47,254 nucleotides of DNA from an uncultured Eubacteriales bacterium (GTDB lineage Bacteria > Bacillota > Clostridia > Oscillospirales > CAG-272). Below the pieces are notes generated by a model. The model saw only the letters and a list, made by a program, of their open reading frames with translations. It had not been told where the DNA came from and did not search any database. The stretch spans positions 1-47,254 of the forward strand of contig CASTST010000005.1 of assembly GCA_949451655.1 (NCBI GenBank). The letters are read 5' to 3'. The first letter of the stretch is position 1; every line of letters starts with the position of its first letter. Below are positions 30,081 to 39,971 of the stretch, piece after piece. The position numbers and the translations under genes are program-made.

Positions 30081-31166
30081 ATGGATAGTATGAAAAAAGC
30101 GTATTTGATTTTGGACGGGGGACAGGTGTTCGAGGGCTACCGGTTCGGTGCCGAGACGGACACTGTAGGCGAATTGGTATTCACCACCGGTATGGTGGGG
30201 TATATCGAAACGCTTACCGACCCCAGCTACTTTGGACAGATTGTGCTGCAAACCTTCCCTCTGATCGGGAACTATGGCATAATCAGCGAAGATTTTGAAG
30301 GGAAGCCCGCCGCAAAAGGATACGTGGTGCGGGAATGGTGTGATACACCTTCCAACTTCCGCAGTGAAGGAACGGTAGACGCGTTCCTCAAAAAAGCAGG
30401 TATCCCCGGCATCTGGGGTGTAGATACCCGGGAAATCACCCGGATTATCCGTGAGGAGGGCGTTATGAACGCCATCATTACCGATAAGATTCCTGAAGAT
30501 TTGACGGATGTGCATACATATACCATCAAGGACGCAGTAAAAAGCGTGTCCTGCCAGTCTCCGACCACCTATCCGGCAAACGGAGAAGAAAAATTCAAGG
30601 TAACACTGATCGACTACGGCTTTAAAATGAATATTGTCCGGGAGCTTACCAAACGGGGCTGTACCGTAACGGTCGTTCCCTATGATACAACAGCGGAAGA
30701 AATCCTTGCCGGCAAACCGGACGGCGTCATGCTTTCCAACGGTCCTGGGGATCCCACGGAAAATACAGGCTGTATCCGGGAAATTCAGAACTTGCTGGGG
30801 AAGGTGCCGATTTTTGGAATCTGTTTGGGTCACCAGCTTTTGGCGCTTGCAAACGGTGGTAAAACTGTCAAACTGAAATACGGTCACAGAGGCGCCAACC
30901 AGCCTGCCAAAGAGCTTTACGGAAAGCGGACGTATATTACCTGCCAGAACCACGGCTACGCAGTGGTGTCCGACAGCATCGGCGATGTGGGCAGAGTTAC
31001 GATGATTAACGCAAACGACGGCACCTGCGAGGGAGTGGAATATCCTGCCCTCCATGCCTTCTCTGTTCAGTTCCACCCGGAGGCTTGTTCCGGTCCGCTG
31101 GACACAAACTATTTGTTCGACCAGTTCTTTGCATGGATGGGAGGTTCAGACAATGCCGCTGAATAA
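30081..31166 (+). CDS. carA: Carbamoyl-phosphate synthase small (glutaminase) subunit
   Basis: AYLILDGGQVFEGYRFGAETDTVGELVFTTGMVGYIETLTDPSY...; VPIFGICLGHQLLALANGGKTVKLKYGHRGANQP; FSVQFHPEACSGPLDT. Confidence 0.97.
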   Translation: MDSMKKAYLILDGGQVFEGYRFGAETDTVGELVFTTGMVGYIETLTDPSYFGQIVLQTFPLIGNYGIISEDFEGKPAAKGYVVREWCDTPSNFRSEGTVDAFLKKAGIPGIWGVDTREITRIIREEGVMNAIITDKIPEDLTDVHTYTIKDAVKSVSCQSPTTYPANGEEKFKVTLIDYGFKMNIVRELTKRGCTVTVVPYDTTAEEILAGKPDGVMLSNGPGDPTENTGCIREIQNLLGKVPIFGICLGHQLLALANGGKTVKLKYGHRGANQPAKELYGKRTYITCQNHGYAVVSDSIGDVGRVTMINANDGTCEGVEYPALHAFSVQFHPEACSGPLDTNYLFDQFFAWMGGSDNAAE

Positions 31167-34100
31167 GAATATTAAAAAGGTACTGATGATCGGAAGCGGT
31201 CCGATTGTGATCGGTCAGGCAGCAGAGTTCGACTACGCAGGCGCACAGGCGTGCCGTGTGCTGAAAAAGGCAGGCGTCAACGTGGTGCTGGTCAACTCCA
31301 ACCCGGCTACCATTATGACGGACAACGCCCTTGCGGATGAAATCTATCTGGAACCCCTGACGGTGGAAACGGTCAAACGTATCATCGAAAAAGAACGTCC
31401 CGACAGCCTTCTTGCAGGACTTGGCGGACAAACCGGTCTGACTCTTGCAATGCAGCTCTCCAAAGACGGATACCTGGAGGAGCAGGGCGTGCGCCTGCTT
31501 GGTACGGACGCACGCGCTATTGACCGGGCAGAGGACCGGCAGATGTTCAAGGATACCATGGCAAAAATCGGACAGCCGGTGGTGCCCTCCGACATTGCAA
31601 ATACAGTAGAGGACTGCCTGGAAGTGGCAAAACGCATCGGCGGATATCCCGTAATTGTACGCCCCGCCTTTACCCTTGGCGGCGGCGGCGGCGGTGTTGC
31701 CTACAGCGAGGAAGAGCTGCGGGTCATCGCACGGACCGGCTTGGATGTGTCCCCCATTACCCAGGTACTCATCGAACGGTATATCGCCGGATGGAAAGAA
31801 ATCGAATTTGAAGTGATGCGGGATGCTGCCGGCAACGCCATTGCAATCTGTTCCATGGAGAACTTTGACCCGGTTGGCGTGCATACCGGAGATTCCATCG
31901 TTGTGGCACCCGCACTGACTTTGTCGAATACAGAGTATCAGATGCTCCGTTCCGCATCCCTGGATATCGTGTCCGAACTGGGCATCGTGGGTGGCTGTAA
32001 CTGTCAGTTTGCTCTGAACCCGGATTCCTTTGAATATGCAGTAATCGAAGTAAATCCCCGTGTGTCCCGTTCATCCGCCCTTGCATCTAAAGCAACCGGA
32101 TATCCCATTGCAAAGGTTACTACCCAGCTTGCTCTTGGCTATACGCTGGATGAAATTCAGAACGAGATCACCGGCAAAACCTGCGCCTGCTTTGAACCTA
32201 CTGTAGACTATGTGGTGCTGAAATTCCCCAAATGGCCCTTTGATAAATTTGTCAATTCCAGCCGGAAGCTGGGTACCCAGATGAAAGCCACCGGTGAGGT
32301 TATGTCTATTGCGCCCTCCTTTGAAATGGCTGTTATGAAAGCAATCCGTGGCGCGGAGATTTCACAGGATACCCTGAATATGGAGCCGAAAACGGCGCTT
32401 CCTCTGAAGGAACGTCTTGCAGCCCAGGACGATGTGCGGATTTTCACTGTGTTTGAAGCCTTGAAGAACGGCATGGACATGGATGAAATCTTCAGTATCA
32501 CAAAGATCGACCGCTGGTTTTTGAACAAACTGAAGCGGCTTGCAGATTTTGAAAAGAAAATCGCCGGCGGACTGTCCGATGAAGACTACTATACTGCAAA
32601 GAAACTGGGCTATACAGACGCTTCTATTACCGCTCTCAGCGGACGGAAGGATCTGCCGGAGTCCACTGCGGTATATAAAATGGTGGATACCTGCGGCGCA
32701 GAGTTTGCCGCACAGACTCCCTATTTCTATTCCACTTATGATAAGGAATGTGAATCCCGTTCCTTCCCCAAAAGCGGAAAACCGGTTATTATGGTACTGG
32801 GAAGCGGTCCCATCCGAATCGGGCAGGGAATCGAATTTGACTATTCCTCTGTACACTGCGTATGGACGCTGAAGGAATTGGGCTATGACGTGGTTATTGT
32901 CAACAACAACCCGGAAACCGTTTCTACAGACTATGATACTGCAGACCGACTGTACTTTGAGCCTCTGTGCCCCGAAGATGTTATGAACATCATCAAGGCG
33001 GAAAATCCTGTGGGCGTGGTGGTTGCATTCGGCGGACAAACGGCGATCAAGCTCACAAAGCTTTTGGACGAAAATGGAATCCAGATTCTGGGTACCTCCG
33101 CAGACGGCATTGATATTGCCGAGGACAGAGAACGGTTTGACGCACTTCTGGAGGAATTCTCCATCCGCCGTCCGAAGGGGCATGGCGTTATGTCCTGTGA
33201 GGAAGCCCTTGCAGCGGCAAACGAGCTGGGATATCCCGTGCTGCTCCGCCCCTCCTACGTAATCGGCGGTCAGAATATGACCATTGCTTACGACGACGAA
33301 AGCGTGCGCCGGTATATGAAGATCATTCTGTCCGGTGAGATTGACAACCCTGTGCTGGTTGATAAATATATGATGGGTACAGAACTTGAGGTAGACGTAA
33401 TCTCCGATGGCAAGGATGTGCTTATCCCTGGTATCATGGAGCATATCGAACGGGCAGGCGTTCACTCCGGCGACTCCATTGCCGTGTACCCGCCTTATAA
33501 CCTCAACGACCTGATGCTGGAAAAAGTTATCGACTGTTCCACAAAGTTGGCGCTTTCTCTTGGCACCAAAGGGCTTGTCAACATCCAGTACCTTATTTAT
33601 CACGGGGAACTGTATGTAATCGAAGTGAACCCCCGCGCGTCCCGTACCGTTCCTTATATCAGTAAGGTTACCGGTGTGCCGCTGGTGGATATCGCCAGCC
33701 GGGTTATGACCGGCGCAGCCCTTGCGGATCTTGGCTACGGCACAGGTCTGTATAAGACTCCGCCGTATTTCGCGGTAAAAGTGCCTGTGTTCTCCTTTGA
33801 GAAGCTGTCTGATGTAAACTCCATTCTTGGTCCTGAAATGAAATCTACCGGTGAAGTGCTGGGTATCGGACGAACCATGGCAGAAGCCTTGTTCAAGGGA
33901 CTTACTTCCGCAGGCTTTGATCTGAAGCTCCCCAGCCACGGAAAAATCGGCGCGCTGATCAGCGTGTGCGAGCATGACAGCTTTGAGGTTGTAACTCTGG
34001 CAAAGAAATTCCACGATCTGGGTATTGAGATTTATGCAACGCCCGACACGGCAAAAACCATCGCCCAGCTTGGTATCGAAGTAAATACCGTTTGCAGTAT

Positions 34101-35184
34101 GGATCAGGGCGATGATATGATGCAGCTCCTGGAATCCGGCAAGGTCAGCTATGTAATCTATACCGGCGCTGTTCATGACGATACAGTAGGAGATTACATT
34201 ACCTTGCATCGCCGTGCAATTCAGCTTTCTATCGCATGTCTCACCTCTCTGGATACGGCAAACGCCCTTGCAGATATTTTTGCGTCCCGTTATAATCAGC
34301 AGAATACTGAGACAGTGGATATCAACAACATGCGCACTAAGCGGCAGAAGGTGCACTTCTCCAAAATGGAAGGCAGCGGCAACGATTATATCTTCATTGA
34401 TAACTTTGACGAAAAGATTACCTGTCCCGAATCTCTCTGCGTGGCACTGTGCGACCGCAACTGCGGCATCGGCGGCACCGGTATCGTCCTTATGGAAAAA
34501 TCTCACATTGCAGATGCAAAAATGCGGATTTTCAACCAGGACGGCAGTGAAGGTAAAATGGCGGGCAACAGTATCCGCTGCGTGGCAAAATATCTGTATG
34601 ACACCGGCGTGACATCGAAAAAAGTAGTGCAGATTGAAACGGCAAGCGGCGTTCGGACCCTGCGTCTGTATACCATGAACGGAAAGGTTTCTTCCGTTTC
34701 TGTTGATATGGGTCAGGCAAGTCTGAATCCCGCGGATATCCGCACGACCCTTACCGGAGATGAAATCGTCAATCGCCCGGTAACAATCGGCGGTGAGGAA
34801 TTTGCAATCACCTGTGTTTCTGTGGGTAACCCACACTGCGTAGTATTTTGCAGCCGCGTGGATGATGTGGATATTGAAACGGTAGGTCCTCAGTTTGAAA
34901 ACGCGGATATTTTCCCGGATCGTATCAATACGGAGTTTGTTCGTGTAGTCAATGAAGCAACCCTGAAAATGCGTGTGTGGGAGCGCGGCAACGGCGAAAC
35001 CCTTGCCTGCGGTACCGGCGCGTGCGCAGCGGTAGTGGCTGCTACCCGTCTGGGATACTTCAAGAAGGGCACAGACGTGACCGTGAAGCTGCCCGGCGGC
35101 GATTTGATCGTGCGCTATACGGATGAGGGGGTTACTCTCACCGGGGAAGCAAAGCTGGTATACGAAGGGGAAGTAGAGCTGTAA
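31153..35184 (+). CDS. Fusion: carbamoyl-phosphate synthase large subunit (about 31153-34329) + diaminopimelate epimerase (about 34330-35184)
   Basis: One ORF with no stop: MPLNKNIKKVLMIGSGPIVIGQAAEFDYAGAQACRVLKKAG ... both CPSase halves ... LADIFASRYNQQNTETVDINN | MRTKRQKVHFSKMEGSGNDYIFIDNFDE ... GNSIRCVAKYLYDTG ... ETLACGTGACAAVVAA. Confidence 0.95.
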   Translation: MPLNKNIKKVLMIGSGPIVIGQAAEFDYAGAQACRVLKKAGVNVVLVNSNPATIMTDNALADEIYLEPLTVETVKRIIEKERPDSLLAGLGGQTGLTLAMQLSKDGYLEEQGVRLLGTDARAIDRAEDRQMFKDTMAKIGQPVVPSDIANTVEDCLEVAKRIGGYPVIVRPAFTLGGGGGGVAYSEEELRVIARTGLDVSPITQVLIERYIAGWKEIEFEVMRDAAGNAIAICSMENFDPVGVHTGDSIVVAPALTLSNTEYQMLRSASLDIVSELGIVGGCNCQFALNPDSFEYAVIEVNPRVSRSSALASKATGYPIAKVTTQLALGYTLDEIQNEITGKTCACFEPTVDYVVLKFPKWPFDKFVNSSRKLGTQMKATGEVMSIAPSFEMAVMKAIRGAEISQDTLNMEPKTALPLKERLAAQDDVRIFTVFEALKNGMDMDEIFSITKIDRWFLNKLKRLADFEKKIAGGLSDEDYYTAKKLGYTDASITALSGRKDLPESTAVYKMVDTCGAEFAAQTPYFYSTYDKECESRSFPKSGKPVIMVLGSGPIRIGQGIEFDYSSVHCVWTLKELGYDVVIVNNNPETVSTDYDTADRLYFEPLCPEDVMNIIKAENPVGVVVAFGGQTAIKLTKLLDENGIQILGTSADGIDIAEDRERFDALLEEFSIRRPKGHGVMSCEEALAAANELGYPVLLRPSYVIGGQNMTIAYDDESVRRYMKIILSGEIDNPVLVDKYMMGTELEVDVISDGKDVLIPGIMEHIERAGVHSGDSIAVYPPYNLNDLMLEKVIDCSTKLALSLGTKGLVNIQYLIYHGELYVIEVNPRASRTVPYISKVTGVPLVDIASRVMTGAALADLGYGTGLYKTPPYFAVKVPVFSFEKLSDVNSILGPEMKSTGEVLGIGRTMAEALFKGLTSAGFDLKLPSHGKIGALISVCEHDSFEVVTLAKKFHDLGIEIYATPDTAKTIAQLGIEVNTVCSMDQGDDMMQLLESGKVSYVIYTGAVHDDTVGDYITLHRRAIQLSIACLTSLDTANALADIFASRYNQQNTETVDINNMRTKRQKVHFSKMEGSGNDYIFIDNFDEKITCPESLCVALCDRNCGIGGTGIVLMEKSHIADAKMRIFNQDGSEGKMAGNSIRCVAKYLYDTGVTSKKVVQIETASGVRTLRLYTMNGKVSSVSVDMGQASLNPADIRTTLTGDEIVNRPVTIGGEEFAITCVSVGNPHCVVFCSRVDDVDIETVGPQFENADIFPDRINTEFVRVVNEATLKMRVWERGNGETLACGTGACAAVVAATRLGYFKKGTDVTVKLPGGDLIVRYTDEGVTLTGEAKLVYEGEVEL

Positions 35185-35294: not shown

Positions 35295-35386
35295 GGAGAA
35301 GTCGCGTAGCTGGTCGAGCGCGCACGATTGGAAATCGTGTAACCGTCAAAAGCGGTTCGAGAGTTCGAATCTCTCCTTCTCCGCCA
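35295..35386 (+). tRNA. tRNA-Ser (anticodon GGA)
   Basis: GGAGAAG...CTTCTCC acceptor stem; CACGA-TTGGAAA-TCGTG anticodon arm (GGA); long variable arm; GAGAG-TTCGAAT-CTCTC T-arm; encoded CCA. Confidence 0.95.
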
Positions 35387-35388
35387 AA

Positions 35389-35431
35389 AAGAGACAAACT
35401 TGTTTTAGAGCTGGTTTGTCTCTTCTTTTAC
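35389..35431 (+). terminator. Rho-independent terminator after tRNA-Ser
   Basis: AAGAGACAAACttgttttagagctgGTTTGTCTCTTCTTTT. Confidence 0.8.
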
Positions 35432-35608
35432 CCACAAATAGGCTAAAAATAGAATGATAGCATTGATAACGACTTGATTTTGATGAAAATCAGGTCGTTT
35501 TTTCTTTTGCTTATTAAAATTATAAGCCATAAATATACTAATTTGCAGGTTATGGCTATAAGAAAAAAGCCAAAGAAAGTTTTAAATCCACTAATATTTA
35601 TTTTATTC

Positions 35609-35637
35609 TTGTGAAACCCACAAATTAATGATATAAT
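35609..35637 (+). promoter_or_regulatory. Putative promoter of the tRNA-Ser island operon
   Basis: TTGTGA - 17 bp - TATAAT, followed by AGAAAGGAA and ATG at 35656. Confidence 0.6.
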
Positions 35638-35655
35638 TAGAAAGGAATTTATAAT

Positions 35656-36051
35656 ATGAAGTTGTCTTATATAGAATCAAAGATTTTTGGCAAAGTTTGT
35701 TATGGATTTCGTCGAAATAAAGACGGCATTGTTGAAACAATACCGGACAAGGCTGAAGTTGTTAAAATGATATTCTCACTTTATTTGGATGGAAACAGCT
35801 TAGAGAATATCCAATATTACTTGCTGGATGCCAAGATCCCTTCTCCATCTGGAAAAGAAAAATGGAGTCGAGATGTATTGAATAAGTTATTAAATAACTA
35901 CAAATACACTTTTGGTATCGTTAGTCATGAACTGTTTGAAGCTGTAGAATGTTTAAAGGAAAGTAATTGCCGAAATCCAAATCGAAGTGTAGAGGATGTA
36001 GATGAATGGGACGAGCAACAAGAACGGAACTACTGTGGGCTTATGCTATAA
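35656..36051 (+). CDS. Free-standing serine-recombinase 'Recombinase' domain protein (no catalytic domain)
   Basis: FGKVCYGFRRNKDGIVETIPDKAEVVKMIFSLYLDGNSLENIQYYLLDAKIPSPSGKEKWSRDVLNKLLNNYKYTFG matches the DNA-binding Recombinase domain of large serine recombinases; the N-terminal resolvase domain is absent; own promoter and RBS. Confidence 0.75.
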   Translation: MKLSYIESKIFGKVCYGFRRNKDGIVETIPDKAEVVKMIFSLYLDGNSLENIQYYLLDAKIPSPSGKEKWSRDVLNKLLNNYKYTFGIVSHELFEAVECLKESNCRNPNRSVEDVDEWDEQQERNYCGLML

Positions 36052-36605
36052 CACGTGAGGAGTTTCTAAAACGCGTGAATGATAAAGTTGAACTTCATCC
36101 AGAGGAGTGGGAAGATATCCGCGATACTCTATTTAAGGCGATGAGCAAAGAGAAAACTCCTATATATGAGCCTAAAATGAATGCATATCTGGAAGACACA
36201 GTATACAAATATTTACGTCCGACGGATGAGCCTATGTCACTGACGGATATTGCGAGAAGGTTTGAACCAGAAAATCCGAGTTATTTGATTCAAAGCTGGC
36301 TTCGCAATAGAAATACGATTGAGTTTCTCGGAGAATGGGAACGCAATAACAATAAGGAATTCAACGAGGAAGCTTTTCAAAAATTACTGAAAGATGTTCG
36401 CTCGCCGTCCTATACGCTGACTCCAAAGAGATGGATTGAAACTGTGAATGCTATTGGACTTGAATCCAAGCGTGGCAAAAACGGAGGCACGATGGCACAT
36501 CCGTTTATTGCCTGTGATTTTGAAATGTGGAATGATATGCAGCTTCGATATAAGGTGCTGAAGCATTTTATGAGTTCAAGGGTTGAAACGGACGATGAGG
36601 AATAA
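36006..36605 (+). CDS. KilA-N domain protein
   Basis: SYLIQSWLRNRNTIEFLGEWERNNNKEFN...SYTLTPKRWIETVNAIGLESKRGKNGGTMAHPFIACDFEMWN is KilA-N-like; extra ~65-aa N-terminus. Confidence 0.75.
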   Translation: MGRATRTELLWAYAITREEFLKRVNDKVELHPEEWEDIRDTLFKAMSKEKTPIYEPKMNAYLEDTVYKYLRPTDEPMSLTDIARRFEPENPSYLIQSWLRNRNTIEFLGEWERNNNKEFNEEAFQKLLKDVRSPSYTLTPKRWIETVNAIGLESKRGKNGGTMAHPFIACDFEMWNDMQLRYKVLKHFMSSRVETDDEE

Positions 36606-36634
36606 AGGCAATAAGAACATAAGGAGGATGCATT

Positions 36635-39349
36635 ATGAATGAGTTTGATCGCAACATTTTGATAGTCAACGAAAATATATGTAAAAATATTGCAAGTATC
36701 ACTAAAGAAGACAGAGGTTTTAGATCACAAAATATTTTGAATAATCTGCGTCATTTAGTAGAAGCAATTGCACAGCGTATTTATAGCGAAAAAGAAACAA
36801 TTACGCTTAACAAATATGATGATATAGAACGCTCTGTTTCATATGTTGCATCCAGAGGAGAATTGCGCTTCCTGAACCGTTTTCACTATTTTCTTCAAGC
36901 AGCAGTTTCGCATTTTATCCCTGATGAAGATGGAGCAACGCGCCTCATGCTAAAATATTATGAGTGGCTTATCAGGATTCGGGAATATGCAAAAAGCACT
37001 TTCAATCTTGATATTTTAGAAAATCTGGAGGATTACCCTTACGATCAAGATGATTCATTGTTTGAATATTATGAAAAAATTGCGTTTTGCTTAGACCGTG
37101 CACAGTACACGCATAAGTCACCCCAAAGTAGGTTTTATGTTCAAAAAAGCAAAACCTTCTTTGTCAGCGGGAAAATATATTATGAAATTACTGTCACGCC
37201 TGCAGATGATTACTCGAGTAAATTTAACAGGTTTACTGTATTTTCTAACAAAGAAATACCGACGTATTATGCTATAAAACTGAGTTTTATTGATGACGAA
37301 ATCGAGATTTTAGGACGCCGTATGCCAATCAGGATGATTAACACATATTTTGTTGCAATTCGCCCAGTGGAATTCGAAGATTTTTCTCGAATTCTGAACA
37401 TGCAAAAAGTGAGCACAGGAACCAAAGAATACCATGCCATGATGGAATATCTCACTGTATCTGGAATTAGTCTGTCCGAATTGGTAACTATGGCTGACGA
37501 ATATTATGATGTTGTTAAAACAGAAATCCAAAATTCAAGCAACTCTAATAACCTATTTAACTCCCTGGATAGATGCAGGCAACTCATTAAATCAAAAGCC
37601 CCCGGTAGCAACATTATGCGGTATATTTTGCTAAAAATGCGACATCATATTATGAAACGCCAGATAGCTGACCGCGCTAACAACTGGCTATCTTACTTAT
37701 GCTTATGGAATGAGTGTCTTCCTTTCGACAAAATGCCTTTTGATGCTTCTTTGGTTTACCATAACCCTACCTTGTTTGATGTTTTTTCTTGTATCAGTAG
37801 CAAAGGACGCGAGCATGAGATATTATCGCGGAAAATTCGAAGTAACACCGAGCGAAATGTCCAATTGTTTACACCCACCAAAGATGTTGAATATATTGGT
37901 AATGTTCCAGAACTTGCAAATAAGTTCAATTCGTTGCTTATTCGCAAGCACATTCCAGTTAGGAGTCTAATAGTCGAGAATGAGCGAGTATATATAAACG
38001 GATACGAGTCTGACACCGTTGATATTATTAATAACCTCATTGGACGTACCGGCAGTGGTTTGACAGGATACCATAATACAATGGTTGCTTGGCTTCAAGA
38101 AATGCCTGTTGTTGACTGTGATGAAAAGAAAACTATACTGCTTGACATGTTTGCAAAACATGATCTTGCTATGATATATGGGGCAGCTGGAACGGGAAAA
38201 ACAACGTTGATAAAGCACTTGTCAATGTATTTTGCAGATTCCAGTAAATTGTATTTAGCGAATACAAATCCTGCAAAGGAAAACCTTCGTCGACAGATAA
38301 AAGTAAGCAATAGCGAATTTAGCACTATAGCAAGTTGTGGCCCTCTTGTTGATGGGCGTAGATATGATATTGTTTTTATTGACGAGTGTAGTACAGTCGA
38401 TAATTTTGCAATGAAGGAATTGCTGAAAAAGTTACAATGCCGGTTACTTGTGCTAGTAGGGGATGTATATCAGATACGTTCCGTTAAATTTGGAAACTGG
38501 TTTAGTTTGGCACGCTACTTTTTAAAGTCGGAAATCATTTACGAGTTAACCACCCCATTTCGCAGTAGGAATAGTGGAATGAGAAAACTTTGGGATAAAG
38601 TTCGCCATTTAGACGAGCGATCAGAGGAATTCATAGCAATACATCATTATGCCTCTGAATTAGACGATAGTATTTTTGAGCATGAAGATCAGGATGAAGT
38701 TGTTCTATGTTTAAATTACGACGGCCTTTACGGTGTTAATAACATCAATCGTTTTCTGCAGAATGATAACCCAAATCCTGCGGTGTATTGGGATTCGTGG
38801 ATATATAAAATTGGAGATCCGGTTATATTCAACGAATACAACCATTTTTATCCGACGTTATACAACAATCTGAAGGGTTGGATTCGTCATATAGAAAGAA
38901 CAGATACAGTTATAAAGTTTGATGTGGAAGTAGATATGCCGTTAACTGAATTTGCTGCAATGACTGCAGGTTTTAGTTTGCTTGAATGCGATGTTCCTGG
39001 TCATTCATTGATTCATTTTTCAGTTGATCGTTATGTTGATGATGACGGACGCGAGAGACAGAACGCAGAAGTAGTTCCGTTCCAAGTTGCATACGCTATT
39101 TCTATCCATAAAGCACAAGGACTGGAGTATAACTCTGTTAAGGTCGTTGTTACTAACGAAATTGAAGAGTTAATAACCCACAACATTTTCTATACAGCCA
39201 TTACAAGAGCGCGTGAAAAACTGAAAATTTATTGGACGCCAGAAACTCAGCATAAGGTGCTAACCGAAATGAAGCTCATTTCTTGTAAGAAGGATGCATA
39301 TATTATTTCCAATAAGCATAACATTCCTGTTATAAACAGATACGACTAA
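36635..39349 (+). CDS. Large SF1 (UvrD/RecD-like) helicase with a ~500-aa N-terminal extension
   Basis: 904 aa; Walker A MIYGAAGTGKTTLIKHL, Walker B IVFIDECSTVD, motif III LLVLVGDVYQIRS, ELTTPFRSRN, AYAISIHKAQGLEYNSVKVV, FYTAITRAREKLKIYW. N-terminal region not recognised. Confidence 0.85.
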   Translation: MNEFDRNILIVNENICKNIASITKEDRGFRSQNILNNLRHLVEAIAQRIYSEKETITLNKYDDIERSVSYVASRGELRFLNRFHYFLQAAVSHFIPDEDGATRLMLKYYEWLIRIREYAKSTFNLDILENLEDYPYDQDDSLFEYYEKIAFCLDRAQYTHKSPQSRFYVQKSKTFFVSGKIYYEITVTPADDYSSKFNRFTVFSNKEIPTYYAIKLSFIDDEIEILGRRMPIRMINTYFVAIRPVEFEDFSRILNMQKVSTGTKEYHAMMEYLTVSGISLSELVTMADEYYDVVKTEIQNSSNSNNLFNSLDRCRQLIKSKAPGSNIMRYILLKMRHHIMKRQIADRANNWLSYLCLWNECLPFDKMPFDASLVYHNPTLFDVFSCISSKGREHEILSRKIRSNTERNVQLFTPTKDVEYIGNVPELANKFNSLLIRKHIPVRSLIVENERVYINGYESDTVDIINNLIGRTGSGLTGYHNTMVAWLQEMPVVDCDEKKTILLDMFAKHDLAMIYGAAGTGKTTLIKHLSMYFADSSKLYLANTNPAKENLRRQIKVSNSEFSTIASCGPLVDGRRYDIVFIDECSTVDNFAMKELLKKLQCRLLVLVGDVYQIRSVKFGNWFSLARYFLKSEIIYELTTPFRSRNSGMRKLWDKVRHLDERSEEFIAIHHYASELDDSIFEHEDQDEVVLCLNYDGLYGVNNINRFLQNDNPNPAVYWDSWIYKIGDPVIFNEYNHFYPTLYNNLKGWIRHIERTDTVIKFDVEVDMPLTEFAAMTAGFSLLECDVPGHSLIHFSVDRYVDDDGRERQNAEVVPFQVAYAISIHKAQGLEYNSVKVVVTNEIEELITHNIFYTAITRAREKLKIYWTPETQHKVLTEMKLISCKKDAYIISNKHNIPVINRYD

Positions 39350-39353
39350 TCTC

Positions 39354-39383
39354 TTCGAGAGTTCAAATCTAACTTCCAAAAAG
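39354..39383 (+). repeat. Degenerate direct repeat of the tRNA-Ser 3' end (attR-like)
   Basis: TTCGAGAGTTCaAATCT-aacttc-CAAAAAG versus tRNA 3' end TTCGAGAGTTCgAATCT-ctccttctccgc-CAAAAAG (35356-35391). Confidence 0.75.
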
Positions 39384-39416
39384 CCGAAAATATCTTTTTC
39401 ATGTGGCTCTTACATC

Positions 39417-39453
39417 AAAAGAAACGACAACAAAGTTGTCGTTTCTTTTTTTG
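39417..39453 (+). terminator. Rho-independent terminator at the island's right end
   Basis: AAAAGAAACGACAACaaaGTTGTCGTTTCTTTTTTTG. Confidence 0.85.
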
Positions 39454-39526
39454 TTTCAGAAAGACATGCAGTCAGATTCAAGCCTCCCCCAGCAAAGGGA
39501 GCTCCCACGTATGCACAAATTTTACA

Positions 39527-39695
39527 AGGCTCCCATGTGAGGATCCACTGCGTGGCTCCATAGGGAGCTGTCGCGGCTTAGCCGTGACTGAGGGATTGTT
39601 ATGTAATACTGTCAAATTGGAAATACTACAAAATGATCGTAGGAACAATCCCCCCGCCGATTACATCGGCACCCCCCTTTGCACAAGGGGGGCTT
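39527..39695. repeat. Dispersed palindromic element, copy D
   Basis: AAGGCTCCCATGTGAGG...GAGGGATTGTTA..AATACTGTCAAATT..AAAATGAT..GGAACAATCCCCCCGCCGATTACATCGGCACCCCCCTTTGCACAAGGGGGGCTT. Confidence 0.85.
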
Positions 39696-39971
39696 CGTTG
39701 GTAGAAGCCTACGGTGTGCCCCCTTTACTGAGGAGAGGCATAAAGAGAGACGGAGTTTACGCTGTATCGCCCCTTGGAACTGCGTAGCAGGTCCTCACAT
39801 GGGGGCTATTGCTTAGTAGCCGTCAACAGCACGCTTCTGCCATTTACTTTGCTACGCGGCTCCAGCCGGGGGAGCCGATTGCTTGTAAGATGCTTTTGCT
39901 GGGAGGAGGGCATTAACTGCCTGCGCACAGGATATACTAAAAACACAAACAAAAGAAGGGAAGTAGTAACA

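Follow-up and report, generated by a model that had tools for sequence, protein, structure and literature searches.

Based on comparison with related genomes, we report that an element of about 4.03 kb (about 35387-39420) has been inserted at the 3′ end of a tRNA-Ser(GGA) gene in contig CASTST010000005.1 of an uncultured Eubacteriales bacterium (GCA_949451655.1), which was analysed over 47,254 nt, hereafter the window. The three tightly packed genes within this putative integrative element appear to be two modules, namely a mobile backbone and a helicase passenger, and the whole reading, element and defence cargo taken jointly, is in our judgement probable. An earlier reading made from the letters of this stretch (the sequence-only reading) had instead proposed one coherent three-gene system, and had overlooked the tRNA-Ser(GGA) just upstream as well as the ends of the element. 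In the following, comparison genomes, mostly drafts, carry G numbers and comparison loci or contigs carry L numbers, and window features are on the forward (+) strand unless otherwise given.

The insertion is best seen against the empty site of the closest relative, G013, whose flank is 93% identical. In G013, the tRNA-Ser leads into CCAAAAAGAAACGACAAC, its own terminator hairpin and then AAGAAAGACTTACAGTCAG, whereas in the window the intact tRNA-Ser(GGA) (35295..35386; ARAGORN, Rfam RF00005), the integration target, continues into CCAAAAAGAGACAAAC, and the G013-type hairpin and flank restart about 4 kb downstream at CAAAAGAAACGACAAC (39416). The left junction with the attL core (35384..35391) reads CCAAAAAG, where the G013 empty site has CCAAAAAGAAACGAC; the same comparison places the right junction CAAAAG, the attR core, at 39416..39421, and the original tRNA-Ser terminator hairpin, whose homolog stands directly behind the G013 tRNA, has been shifted by the insertion to 39417..39449. 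The inserted 4.03 kb has a G+C content of 36.7%, versus 51% and 47% in the flanks. Its left end (LE, 35390..35424) is an inverted repeat, AGAGACAAAC...GTTTGTCTCTT, that doubles as a terminator-like hairpin for the tRNA, and a second terminator-like hairpin at 35468..35499 has a sibling counterpart, CACATTTTGAGTGAAATCAAGATGTG, immediately 5′ of the first open reading frame (ORF 1). At the right end (RE, 39354..39370), the 17-mer TTCGAGAGTTCAAATCT mimics the tRNA-Ser T-arm in 16 of 17 positions, the maximum in 31 other window stretches being 13 of 17, and a matching T-arm-like RE occurs in the viral contig L263. An excised circle would be expected to carry the RE-LE junction ...ACATCAAAAGAGACAAAC....

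Inside these ends, the three intact plus-strand ORFs have exactly the coordinates and lengths that the sequence-only reading had given them, and its domain assignments for the two small proteins held as well. ORF 1 (rec-only, 35656..36051, 131 aa) starts 270 nt downstream of the tRNA 3′ end (35386) and matches the serine-recombinase 'Recombinase' DNA-binding domain (Pfam PF07508, E 1e-11), with no Resolvase catalytic domain found by Pfam. ORF 2 (36006..36605, 199 aa), which overlaps ORF 1 by 46 nt, encodes a KilA-N protein (PF04383, E 3e-9) with a conserved N-terminal helical region and a partial match to the PADLOC candidate PDC-S22; ORF 3 (36635..39349, 904 aa), the helicase, follows after a 29-nt gap. 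The promoter proposed for the three genes, TTGTGA-17-TATAAT, is present at 35609..35637 as a true consensus match (10/12), but such matches are not rarer than chance here, as 22 were observed in this AT-rich stretch against 15.2 ± 4.6 expected.

The two small genes travel together, and apart from the helicase. A search of 196 class genomes with the ORF 1 protein found a 131-aa homologue of 84% identity in G104 and remoter ones in G110, G238, G164 and G111, and the KilA-N protein search matched the same places; therefore, rec-only and the KilA-N protein are a conserved pair, which was also met in G137, G190, G258, G782 and the faecal contig L303. The ratio of nonsynonymous to synonymous substitution rates (dN/dS) of rec-only, 0.11 for the window versus G104 and 0.13 for G110 versus G258, indicates purifying selection. 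That ORF 1 is a truncated gene or pseudogene fragment is ruled out by the 84%-identical homologue of the same length, by the dN/dS of 0.11 and by conservation in the family. In a phylum-wide rec-only alignment, most members were ordinary recombinases, the exceptions being G782 and G625, and rec-only relatives were not found on the plasmids searched. The helicase is absent from the pair-bearing loci G104, G110, G238, G164 and G111, and the pair adjoins the helicase at only one of 108 helicase loci from several phyla, that of the window.

The LE was found to recur behind different tRNA genes. Among 392 class genomes, including the window's own, the LE pattern was exact in 8, the reversed control pattern in 0, and in 6 of these 8 it begins directly behind the 3′ CCA of a tRNA (Ser-GGA, Ser-TGA, Lys-TTT, Met, Lys-CTT and Cys). 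In the alignment of eleven ends (A7), conservation runs from the CCA onward while the tRNA parts differ. Related units (rec-only or KilA-N) whose ends have diverged were seen behind tRNA-Ala, -Leu, -Pro, -Thr, a further Ser, and a tmRNA. In the first rec search, a tRNA or tmRNA (Ser, Lys, Ala, tmRNA, Leu) stood just upstream of stand-alone rec-only ORFs at 5 of 8 loci and upstream of recombinases without a rec-only partner at 0 of 6, the chance of such adjacency being by our estimate about 0.5% per locus. A catalytic serine recombinase (295-517 aa) accompanies the module in G110, G111, G137, G234 and two G117 elements, and is split in G164; it is absent from the window element, G238, G379, G625, G058, G190 and L303. 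About half of the sibling elements encode one. L303 (MT838532.1, 1-5161, human faeces), entered in GenBank as 'Bacteriophage sp.', is probably not a phage, since a single tRNA-Pro is followed there by a tandem of two rec-only/KilA-N units, with the joint ...CATGAC/AAATTAGGC. When viral contigs were scanned with the LE pattern, the single match was L263, a minimal copy with LE, one 333-aa ORF and an RE resembling the window's, which is not at a tRNA; neither a stricter LE pattern, nor a pattern for a sister element, nor a KilA-N scan had any match in viral contigs. Apparently, these bacterial elements, with their docking sites behind tRNA genes, are widespread and undescribed. That they form, as a whole, an undescribed family of small elements in Clostridia and related Bacillota, in which a serine recombinase, rec-only and the KilA-N protein dock at tRNA or tmRNA 3′ ends with interchangeable anti-phage cargo, and in which copies without an integrase depend, like satellites, on mobilisation in trans and can pile up in tandem on a single tRNA, is a joint proposal whose chances we rate only a little better than even.

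Behind the module, the sibling elements have defence systems, known or candidate, as their cargo. These are Gabija with a split GajA in G238, a TIR-TM gene with the YhcG nuclease PDC-S02 in G379, a PDC-S21-like gene with PDC-S13 in L303, a TOTE-type primase with a helicase-PLD in G234, Avs2 in G117, a methylase (MTase) with a HATPase in G058, AbiLi with a RloB-like gene in G625, the protease PDC-S45 with a dCTP deaminase in G110, SpbK in G111, IetAS in G137 and AIPR in G090. No match was obtained for two cargo sets, the first gene of G164 and, in the G117 tRNA-Ser element, a 679-aa protein. To gauge false positives among these calls, 10 chromosomal window genes were run against PADLOC; 9 had no match, and the tenth, a double-ATPase, gave cross-matches.

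The cargo of the window is a helicase that matches PADLOC PDC-S53 (PDLC05035) at 1149.6 bits over residues 1-896 of 904 (profile 1-895 of 900), and phrog_325, 'Dda-like helicase', over nearly its whole length. By Pfam, the superfamily 1 (SF1) helicase domains do not start before residue ~500, and the motifs Walker A GAAGTGKT, DEC, GDxxQ, SIHKAQG and TAITRA vary little or not at all among 45 relatives, in line with the intact SF1 motifs noted earlier. The predicted model (predicted local distance difference test score, pLDDT, 86.5) has RecD2/RecD as best folds, then Pif1 and Dda. For the N-terminal 492 residues, the predicted fold is also confident (pLDDT 89.7), and no PDB match at E ≤ 0.001 was obtained by sequence or fold; residues 165-240 gave weak, non-significant OB-fold-like matches (SSB, LEF-3). 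The HEPN-like nature suggested for this region is unsupported in sequence and fold searches, no HEPN protein being among the 50 listed matches of the N-terminal model. The helicase has a core of the RecD2/Dda-like SF1B type, preceded by a conserved N-terminal region (1-~490) that is novel. A longer PDC-S53-like branch (~1100 aa) with an extra ~190-270-aa N-terminal extension was also seen at L009, L010 and L011 (G443, G207 and G088).

PDC-S53 helicases are sparse, occurring in 9 of the 392 class genomes, and spread over many bacterial phyla, and their surroundings bear on whether the helicase acts for the host or for the element. If the element is real and the helicase serves it, by replicating or processing the excised circle, one would point to the functions of RecD2/Dda/Pif1-like SF1B helicases in replication and recombination, and to relatives on phages and plasmids, one of them beside the replication initiator of a 10.7-kb Lactiplantibacillus plasmid. 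However, siblings with the same backbone do without such a helicase and carry known defence systems instead. Moreover, the relatives cluster with type I restriction genes, which adjoin them at several loci, with methylases and with Abi-like genes, the G044 relative having cytosine methylases on one side and an AAA ATPase/RloB-like pair on the other; and in two prophages they are reversed inserts, one adjoining a type IIS restriction system. Service to the element is therefore unlikely in our view, and the anti-phage or mobile-element idea of the sequence-only reading survives in part: the mobile element stands, and the helicase is a candidate effector (PDC-S53, defence neighbourhoods, prophage cargo), while support for a defence role does not extend to the trio.

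BstA prophage defence proteins use KilA-N, and defence could accordingly be sought in ORF 2, with rec-only as its autoregulator. PADLOC candidates do include KilA-N and Bro-N genes (PDC-S22, PDC-S13), and KilA-N is listed in PMC8585504. Against a BstA-like role, a second, complete defence system follows the KilA-N gene in G238, L303, G111 and G137, the gene often lies directly before a recombinase gene, and its 199 aa hold little beyond the KilA-N domain and a short N-terminal region, which makes this role highly improbable. Slightly more improbable still is a decayed tyrosine-integrase island in the tRNA-Ser that has lost its integrase, with rec-only and the KilA-N protein as unrelated phage leftovers. 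Insertion at a tRNA 3′ end with a 16/17-nt T-arm repeat at the far end would suit such an island, and in G006 the same tRNA-Ser does host a tyrosine integrase accompanied by a cI-like repressor (L183, 2233-3577); one tRNA-Ser serves two unrelated kinds of element, the window's and that of G006. But rec-only has the low dN/dS given above, and its neighbours stay the same in different families; no tyrosine integrase was found in 16 spans (the window element and 15 siblings) by BLAST with two such proteins; the duplicated tRNA fragment that such an island requires at its far end was absent in the ten other elements tested; and the T-arm-like end also occurs in L263, away from a tRNA. Least credible of all is the coherent three-gene anti-phage operon, in which rec-only and the KilA-N protein recognise DNA for a helicase effector, since against its tight packing, common promoter-like site, three intact genes and partial PDC-S22 match stand the pair's recurrence in many genomes alongside defence cargo of unrelated kinds, with a recombinase or with no cargo, its absence from all of the ~107 other helicase loci, the unrelated upstream genes of the G318 helicase (83% identical N-terminus), and the finding that homologues of the three were together at no other sampled locus, an outcome which the sequence-only reading had itself named as refuting; the trio as one system is rejected on this ground.

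Several points weigh against the reading of a mobile element with defence cargo. The evidence for the element is wholly comparative, and its excision and integration are putative; the window copy is non-autonomous or stranded, since no recombinase is on board, and its mobility would be past or helper-dependent. The G013 empty site is a single contig that enters a repeat-rich end, and both G013 and G137 are spread over more than one contig. Clear T-arm mimics are confined to the window, L263 and L303, and the RE is less defined than the LE. The counts of tRNA adjacency are small, and the G110 element occupies a non-tRNA site with ~55-bp imperfect flanking repeats ending AAAGCCA/AAA, as does that of G379 with similar repeats, and probably also that of G164. 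Sampling was non-random, the cargo scan having taken elements of complete appearance rather than an unbiased census. As an anti-phage effector the helicase is a bioinformatic candidate only, no paper on PDC-S53 and no phage assay of it having been found in the literature searched. That literature, which covered few subscription papers and little of bioRxiv, has no description of such elements either, and novelty is therefore provisional.

Directly seen in the sequences compared are the insertion relative to an empty site, the LE behind several tRNAs, the pair apart from the helicase, the recurrent defence cargo and the serine recombinase of siblings; beyond these, we propose the following. The backbone would consist of LE, rec-only, the KilA-N protein and RE, and the cargo of one defence-type gene, here the PDC-S53 helicase. 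Integration at tRNA 3′ ends, with crossover in CAAAA, could be carried out by the serine recombinase that an autonomous sibling encodes, and in the simplest reading such recombinases would also serve the integrase-less copies, the window copy having moved in trans or become stranded. Rec-only and the KilA-N protein may bind the element ends and thereby aid or regulate recombination, and the helicase may load on phage DNA that is single-stranded or forked, disrupting phage replication or recombination. If true, this would explain how defence systems travel singly between gut Clostridia via tRNA docking; the combination of LE behind a tRNA, rec-only and KilA-N would serve as a search key to reveal new defence systems behind the module; and PDC-S22, the KilA-N candidate, may be a marker of mobility, not defence. 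A published statement holds that tRNA 3′ ends are recognised only by tyrosine integrases, serine integrases not being known there. A serine recombinase recognising them would contradict it and could be a useful integration tool; no serine-recombinase family would have been shown before this one to have tRNA genes as targets.

Around the element, the site is variable across the genus, with ordinary genes downstream of the same tRNA-Ser in G001 and G017. In G009 (L178, L179), other sequence lies behind the tRNA-Ser and before the thioredoxin gene, at contig ends, and is possibly another insertion. Between the element and the thioredoxin gene, intergenic repeats CAAAGGGAGCT... and CCCCCCTTTACACAAGGGGGGC occur (window 39450-39960; L176, L177); in G013 they are multicopy and are the probable cause of its broken assembly. 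Upstream, a 1376-aa ORF (31054-35184, +) is an apparent CarB-DapF fusion, its domains named by eye, and the joined frame of carbamoyl-phosphate synthase large subunit and diaminopimelate epimerase is also found in G001 (L181), G006 (L183) and G017 (L180); an 824-aa frame antisense to it (32362-34836, -) is probably a codon-usage artefact.

Among known systems, the Gamma-Mobile-Trio elements (Mahata et al. 2024, cited in PMC12715929) are like the window family in combining a small recombination module with rotating defence cargo, Gabija included. They are reported to be gammaproteobacterial and built round a tyrosine recombinase. In contrast, the window family belongs to Clostridia and others and has serine-recombinase parts, KilA-N and tRNA docking, and a tyrosine recombinase was not found in the 16 spans covered by BLAST. 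With Islander-type islands, in which the integrase is of the tyrosine type and a fragment of the tRNA is left displaced, the element shares the tRNA gene as docking site and an intact tRNA (PMC4383910). It resembles large serine recombinase elements in the catalytic serine recombinase of its autonomous siblings and in having several targets per family, and differs in its separate catalytic-less recombinase domain with KilA-N and in its integrase-less copies; the main text on multi-targeting large serine recombinases makes no mention of tRNA (PMC10083194). The helicase is like RecD2, RecD, Dda and Pif1 of SF1B in core, fold and motifs, and differs in its ~490-aa N-terminal region. With PDC-S53/phrog_325 the likeness extends over the full length, N-terminus included, and the window member is set apart as the putative cargo of a tRNA-docked element.

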